NCBI GenBank assembly: GCA_035945995.1
Contig: DASYZR010000141.1
Location: 1-42,813, forward strand
Length of the DNA stretch: 42,813 nt
Source: a bacterium
GTDB taxonomy: Bacteria > Sysuimicrobiota > Sysuimicrobiia > Sysuimicrobiales > Segetimicrobiaceae
Direction: 5' to 3'
Of this stretch, positions 23,708-24,426 are shown piece by piece. Numbering within the stretch: the first letter of the stretch is position 1; the number at the start of each line of letters is the position of its first letter. The notes beneath the pieces are model-generated. The model saw only the letters and a program-made list of their open reading frames with translations. It was not told where the DNA came from and made no database searches. A program made the translations under genes and the position numbers.

Positions 23708-23739
23708 CCGGACCCACGACACGGAGAGGAGGCGCGAAC

Positions 23740-24426
23740 GTGCCGTTGCTGAGAGACCAGGACCGCCTGGCGCTCACCGACATCTTTGCGAAGCAACTCT
23801 CGACACCGGTCACCGTCGATCTGTTTACGCAGCGGGCCTCGCCGCTCGTGCTGCCCGGGCACGACTGCCAGACCTGCCGCGAGACCGAGGAGCTGCTGGG
23901 GGAGGTGGCCGGTCTCTCCGGCCACATCACGCTCCAGACCCACGATTTCGTCGTCGAGGAAGAGGCGGCCCGGCAGGCCGGCGTGGACCGGATCCCCGCG
24001 CTCGTGTTCCGGGGCAAGAACAAAGGCACCCTGCGGTACTTCGGCACGCCGGCCGGGTACGAGTTCGGCGTGCTCATCGCGGACCTGCTCGAGGTCGCCA
24101 CCGGCACCACGCAGCTCGCGGCGGCCACCCGCGAGCAGGCGGCCGCCCTGCCGTCTCCCGTCCACATCAAGGTCCTGGTCACGCCGACCTGACCCCACTG
24201 CCCGCGTGCGGCCAGGTTGGCCCACCAACTCGCGATCGAGAGCCCGCAGGTGACCGCCGATGTCATCGAGGTGGCCGAGTTTCCGGACGTGGCGCAACGC
24301 TACCAGGTGTACGGCGTGCCCAAGACGATCGTCAACGAGCAGGTCAGCATCGAAGGCGCCGTGCCGGAGACGCGGTTCCTGCGCCTGGTGCTCGACGCGG
24401 TGGGCGCGGGCGGCGCCGGCGGCTGA
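23740..24426 (+). CDS. Two-domain protein disulfide oxidoreductase with in-frame TGA (predicted selenoprotein, Sec151)
   Basis: The start is GTG 23740 behind gagagaggagg-like AGGAGG. Residues 1-~125 form a glutaredoxin/thioredoxin-like domain with C43-Q-T-C46 and cis-Pro motif RIPALVF. The second domain opens with HIKVLVTPT, then TGA (24190-24192), then PHCPRAARLAHQL and cis-Pro motif YGVPKTIVN. The frame is the same on both sides of the TGA and ends at TGA 24426. Relatives (PDO proteins of thermophiles and many bacteria) carry CPxC here, so the TGA falls on the N-terminal nucleophilic cysteine, the usual Sec position. A hairpin suited to SelB lies at 24206-24225. Total 228 residues if read through; 150 if terminated, which would delete the active second domain. 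A TGC-to-TGA mutation or base-call error is the alternative. Confidence 0.8.
24206..24225 (+). promoter_or_regulatory. Bacterial SECIS-like element
   Basis: GTG (24206-24208) pairs with CAC (24223-24225), C24209 is bulged, GGCC (24210-24213) pairs with GGCC (24219-24222), and the apical loop is AGGTT (24214-24218). The E. coli fdhF mini-SECIS has the same plan: lower pairs, a one-base bulge, a short upper stem and loop AGGUCU. The hairpin begins 14 nt after the TGA, within the range tolerated by SelB. The bulged base here is C and not U. Confidence 0.65.

Follow-up and report, generated by a model that had tools for sequence, protein, structure and literature searches.

The question raised by this locus is whether a protein disulfide oxidoreductase (PDO) gene with a single in-frame TGA at its C-terminal redox site is terminated there or is read through, with selenocysteine (Sec) inserted at the TGA. 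The gene lies in a 42,813-nucleotide stretch of DNA (contig DASYZR010000141.1, positions 1 to 42,813; hereafter the window) from a bacterium of the uncultured phylum Sysuimicrobiota. A preliminary description had predicted a two-domain disulfide oxidoreductase with Sec in place of the active-site Cys, and had left open whether such a family was already described. It was: a "Homolog of AhpF N-terminal domain (Grx-like domain protein)", with the model TIGR02187, a UxxC motif and the example ABB15282.1, is listed in selenoproteome tables (PMC13188914, PMC9312934), whose entries give Kryukov and Gladyshev (2004) as the source and class the family as a high-confidence prediction. A survey of 2006 (PMC1794560) names Carboxydothermus hydrogenoformans and Symbiobacterium thermophilum as organisms that have it. 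Since the UxxC form of TIGR02187 has been catalogued since 2004, the window gene joins a known selenoprotein family. The paper on Sysuimicrobiota makes no mention of selenium (PMC11604079).

Results

The PDO Gene and Its In-Frame TGA

The features of the locus are listed in Table 1. The residues around U151 read VTPT-U-PHC-PRAA, this TGA is the sole internal one of the read-through, and the terminal TGA occupies 24424–24426. The translated product was matched by the NCBIfam model TIGR02187 (NCBI name PDO_seleno_TRX) over residues 6–219 with 240 bits (1.6e-71), for which the curated cut-off is 185 bits, and by Pfam Thioredoxin_3 over residues 141–217. V193, P194 and K195 of the cis-Pro loop (GVPK) in the C-domain are invariant in the alignment, and U151 is aligned with the first Cys of the C-terminal CPYC in the archaeal PDO structures 1j08 and 1a8l. 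With its full-length score, its CxxC and UxxC sites and the GVPK loop, the window protein has the features of the selenoprotein subtype of TIGR02187. The preliminary description is thus borne out in its main observations, as both the read-through and the structural alignment place the only internal stop at the first Cys of the C-terminal CPxC, the downstream part is the rest of a thioredoxin fold, and a conventional CxxC is present in the first domain.

The same description had regarded the frame as continuous across the TGA, which agrees with its retention in 19 phylum genes and with the mostly synonymous changes found downstream. Against the orthologue from the same genus, the 70 codons after the TGA differ 6, 1 and 21 times at codon positions 1, 2 and 3, respectively, and 20 of the 27 changed codons are synonymous. 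Judged from this codon comparison, the post-TGA segment is under purifying, coding-type evolution.

Table 1. Features of the PDO locus in the window, with the group of Sec-PDOs that lacks the N-terminal redox site.
Feature	Position	Strand	Basis or remark
OsmC-family peroxiredoxin, 147 aa	23264..23707	+	TIGR03562 156 bits, PF02566 59 bits
Shine-Dalgarno-like GGAGAGGAGG ahead of GTG start	23723..23732	+	Read directly from sequence
PDO gene, predicted to contain Sec	23740..24426	+	228 aa via one-TGA read-through; GTG start, TGA stop
C43-Q-T-C46, redox site of N-terminal thioredoxin domain	23866..23877	+	Intact in window protein
In-frame TGA, predicted Sec151	24190..24192	+	First residue of C-terminal U-P-H-C site
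Cys154, putative resolving residue of UPHC site	24199..24201	+	Invariant in protein alignment
SECIS-like hairpin core GGCCA-GGT-TGGCC	24210..24222	+	RNAalifold, compensatory pair, AGG codon
Sec-PDOs without N-domain CxxC, UPHC kept	L035, L036, L038–L048 (families f2, f3, f4)

Relatives with TGA or Cys at the Predicted Sec Codon

Full-length TIGR02187 genes were counted in a phylum sample of 43 genomes, which gave 20 relatives with one TGA and 10 with Cys. Twenty genes that each carry one TGA represent a recurrence far beyond chance. All 19 TGA genes that were extracted retain both the frame and the sequence VTPT-U-P[HY]C beyond the TGA, and the codon at the Sec151 position is TGC or TGT in the 10 Cys genes. 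The Sec and Cys forms co-occur in two genomes, namely that of the window (G000) and G025; the Cys paralogue in G000 (C70:14791-15438, L021) shares 42% identity with the window protein. A TGA PDO of G042 is seemingly split into C85:8111-8587 and C20:2-322, with one TGA in each piece.

Beyond the phylum, TGA occurs at the matching codon in named records of Gemmatimonadetes, Chloroflexi, Acidobacteria, Bacillota, Zixibacteria and Aquicultor. Most other relatives from named genomes carry Cys, and 64 Cys rows from outside the phylum align at the TGA. The comparison of homologues proposed in the preliminary description hence gives TGA or Cys at this codon, in the phylum and elsewhere. Only distant relatives, with less than 30% identity among the matches listed, were detected in plasmid sequences, and one relative was found in viral contigs. 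A 108-protein tree requires approximately 11 changes of the Sec/Cys label, of which at least 6 are forced by starred branches, indicating repeated gain or loss of Sec. A Gemmatimonadetes record groups with the window protein in one Sec-PDO clade (support 100/98), to which the Sec-PDOs of f2–f4 do not belong.

SECIS-Like Hairpin Downstream of the TGA

Bacterial SECIS elements are stem-loops placed right behind the UGA, and their small apical loop contains a guanosine (PMC1088965); the window hairpin agrees with this rule in both position and apical-loop G. The sequence GCC AGG TTG GCC starts 18 nt 3' of the TGA, the first loop G is 22 nt past the UGA, and the hairpin is of the bacterial SECIS type with the pattern CCA-GGY-TGG. 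RNAalifold recovered the 5-bp GGCCA/TGGCC stem unaided from 28 of the 35 TGA sequences; the seven left out were a duplicate and six whose hairpins take another form. The resulting 97% of cells that pair therefore describes the common hairpin form and not all Sec genes. One stem pair, the sole covarying one, is G-C in 22 sequences and A-U in 5, with both sides changed. The folding energy of the window hairpin did not stand out from that of shuffled versions of the same GC-rich sequence (z −0.53), so that the case for the hairpin stands on conservation rather than on stability.

This conservation is visible in codon choice. Arg in the loop is encoded by AGG in 18 of 19 TGA genes of the phylum, whereas all 10 Cys genes use CGN, and AGG makes up 14 of the 654 Arg codons (2%) in the window genes; these counts are not independent trials, because the sequences are related. 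The contrast is weaker outside the phylum, where AGG is present in 6 of 16 TGA rows and 8 of 64 Cys rows, one of these TGA rows being a duplicate of a phylum row. The PDO gene of G023 is identical to JACQTN010000491.1 over its length. The CCAGG form is missing from the phylum TGA gene L046 and from several outside genes. Variant hairpins were seen in outside TGA PDO genes, such as GTGTGC-AGGTTG-GCACAC in L085:4451-4495 and GGCCAGTCTGGCC in L105. The hairpin and the TGA are also found together in other phyla. Within Sysuimicrobiota, the SECIS-like hairpin predicted here is specific to the TGA genes, and its AGG signature shows a SECIS constraint at the level of synonymous codons.

Sec Machinery of the Genome

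The window's genome (4.15 Mb, 181 contigs, 98.8% complete) contains all four components for which a search had been suggested. The selA (551 bits) and selB (329 bits, or 352 bits when joined to its in-frame neighbour) genes adjoin each other on contig C155, which also carries a tRNA-Sec with the anticodon TCA that scored 70.8 bits, above the Rfam cut-off. The selD gene was located on contig C5 (G000:C5:47185-48105, L016; 387 bits). It has one in-frame TGA of its own (ACAG-U-ASKLSP), and GGCGCAGGTTCTGCGCC 3' of this TGA forms a hairpin that shares the AGGTT apex of the PDO hairpin; selD of this genome is a probable selenoprotein gene as well. One clear copy of thioredoxin reductase (377 bits) was detected in the genome, where a thioredoxin reductase is located at C135:7682-8569. 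In the window itself, no RNA family was matched by the Rfam scan and no tRNA was reported by ARAGORN.

Across the phylum, selA was not found in G038–G040 (94–95% complete), where the PDOs are of the Cys type only. A TGA PDO is accompanied by an absent or weak selA in G017, G023 and G024, which are 69–77% complete, and in G031, which is 93% complete. Two selA-selB pairs were observed within one genome in G007 (C34, C11) and G006 (C42, C106).

A second tRNA with a UCA anticodon was also noticed in the window's genome, in a pair at G000:C24:4244-4440 (L002:1502-1698). It has a long variable arm and scores 56.6 bits as tRNA-Sec, and 23 bp past it lies an odd tRNA whose anticodon is TGC and whose acceptor stem is long. 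This resembles the tRNA-Sec-like or allo-tRNA groups (PMC7609411). A sequence of a same-genus genome (G001:C10:21085-21168) shares 80% identity with the second UCA tRNA and has a CCA anticodon.

N-Terminal Redox Site and Gene Context

The N-domain CxxC is absent from 13 of 19 Sec rows of the phylum versus none of its 10 Cys rows, while outside the phylum it is absent from 1 of 15 Sec rows and 1 of 64 Cys rows. In the Sec-PDOs concerned, this site is replaced by, for example, EGELAE or VEMVEY. The loss among Sec proteins amounts to two changes on the 108-protein tree, corresponding to a single clade plus one additional row, and the window protein is placed outside the clade lacking the site. 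The association of this loss with Sec is suggestive only.

The OsmC-family gene lies upstream of the PDO gene, separated by 32 bp. In G002, of the same genus, OsmC is again upstream with one aspartate-dehydrogenase-like gene between; in G000 it immediately follows the Cys paralogue, and in G007 and G010 it is found on the downstream side of the PDO. The OsmC genes near PDOs fall in two different OsmC subfamilies, and the synteny is limited to one PDO family (f1). A recurring downstream gene of approximately 455 aa, which is not OsmC, was identified for family f4 (L139, L141, L142), and no gene neighbourhood common to all PDOs of the phylum was found. Because OsmC neighbours recur, an OsmC-PDO pair is plausible, making the OsmC-family peroxiredoxin a possible redox partner of the PDO.

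Discussion

The PDO gene almost certainly reads its internal TGA as selenocysteine, as deduced from comparative sequence evidence, and the explanation that best covers the whole is a Sec-containing PDO with two thioredoxin folds in one chain, which we regard as highly probable. An annotation that treats the TGA as a stop would shorten the gene to 150 residues. Such a 150-residue N-domain protein, followed by a decaying pseudogene, is what a true stop would imply, and TGA is indeed the commonest stop in the window, ending 16 of 21 sampled genes. A decaying remainder is, however, hard to reconcile with the frame and the VTPT-U-P[HY]C sequence maintained in the 19 phylum genes, with the predominance of synonymous changes, or with the return of TGA at exactly this codon in Chloroflexota, Acidobacteriota, Bacillota and others, so that termination appears very improbable. 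A sequencing or assembly error that turned TGC or TGT into TGA might be suspected in metagenome-style assemblies of many contigs, but the identical TGA recurs in 19 separate phylum assemblies as well as in named MAGs from other phyla, and it coincides with the AGG hairpin codon. The independence of these assemblies refutes an error in practice, and its probability is negligible. A genome-wide change in the meaning of TGA was not adopted as an explanation, since the 16 sampled genes mentioned above, and the PDO gene too, end in TGA.

It was also considered that UGA is decoded as Ser or Cys, instead of Sec, by the second UCA-anticodon tRNA (C24:4244-4330). Its score as tRNA-Sec lends this some credit, and tRNA-Sec-like and allo-tRNAs carrying Ser or Cys are known (PMC7609411). 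Nevertheless, the UCA anticodon is not conserved, being CCA in the closest relative of this tRNA, from a same-genus genome; a proper tRNA-Sec shares its contig with selA and selB, the hairpin indicates SelB, and TGA is still the common stop. Decoding as Ser or Cys is accordingly rated as a very slim prospect. A different objection accepts Sec insertion and competes only with the part assigned to OsmC: the OsmC neighbour may be unrelated, the main partner being another, such as peroxiredoxins or ribonucleotide reductase via thioredoxin reductase. The Sec-PDOs of f2, f4 and other phyla have no common OsmC neighbour, and this objection is somewhat favoured, even though G000 (both paralogues), G002, G007 and G010 have OsmC-family genes beside or close to the PDO.

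For the Sec-containing PDO, the following mechanism can be proposed. SelB with Sec-tRNA-Sec, bound to the hairpin, would decode UGA as Sec; the U151 selenolate would attack a substrate disulfide or hydroperoxide, and C154 would resolve the selenenylsulfide. Electrons might flow from NADPH through thioredoxin reductase to the C-site, either directly or through C43-Q-T-C46 of the N-domain. The likeliest role would be that of a cytosolic thiol reductant in peroxide or disulfide repair, by which the adjacent OsmC-family peroxiredoxin is plausibly served. A bolder proposal is that, in this phylum, Sec at the C-site renders the N-terminal CxxC expendable, converting a two-site relay into a one-site selenoenzyme, and that the Sec-PDO of the window protein's family is a dedicated reductant of an OsmC-type peroxiredoxin; we consider this unlikely. 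The N-site loss in two Sec lineages nonetheless provides a testable case for the role of Sec in a two-site redox relay.

The window gene is a well-supported new Sec-PDO from an uncultured phylum, and the family itself is already known. It adds a phylum in which Sec-PDO is common and the Sec and Cys forms exist side by side. The catalogued selenoprotein of TIGR02187 (ABB15282.1) is the closest in kind, sharing the model, the UxxC motif and a Sec predicted from UGA, a likeness that is drawn from the catalogue description; it belongs to another phylum, and the OsmC-family neighbour is a feature of the window member. The Cys-type PDOs of archaea and thermophiles (1a8l, 1j08) likewise have two thioredoxin domains with a CxxC N-site and align over the full length, but their C-site is CPYC, of which the first Cys is replaced by TGA in the window gene. 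The N-terminal domain of AhpF (1hyu, 1zyn, 4o5q) also has paired thioredoxin folds, with weak similarity to the window protein, which lacks the flavin domain and scores 55.8 bits with TIGR03140, far under the AhpF cut-off. The nearest contrast is offered by the paralogue of the same genome, L021, which belongs to the same family but carries TGT at the Sec position, a CGC Arg codon and no CCAGG hairpin, and is placed in a separate clade of the tree.
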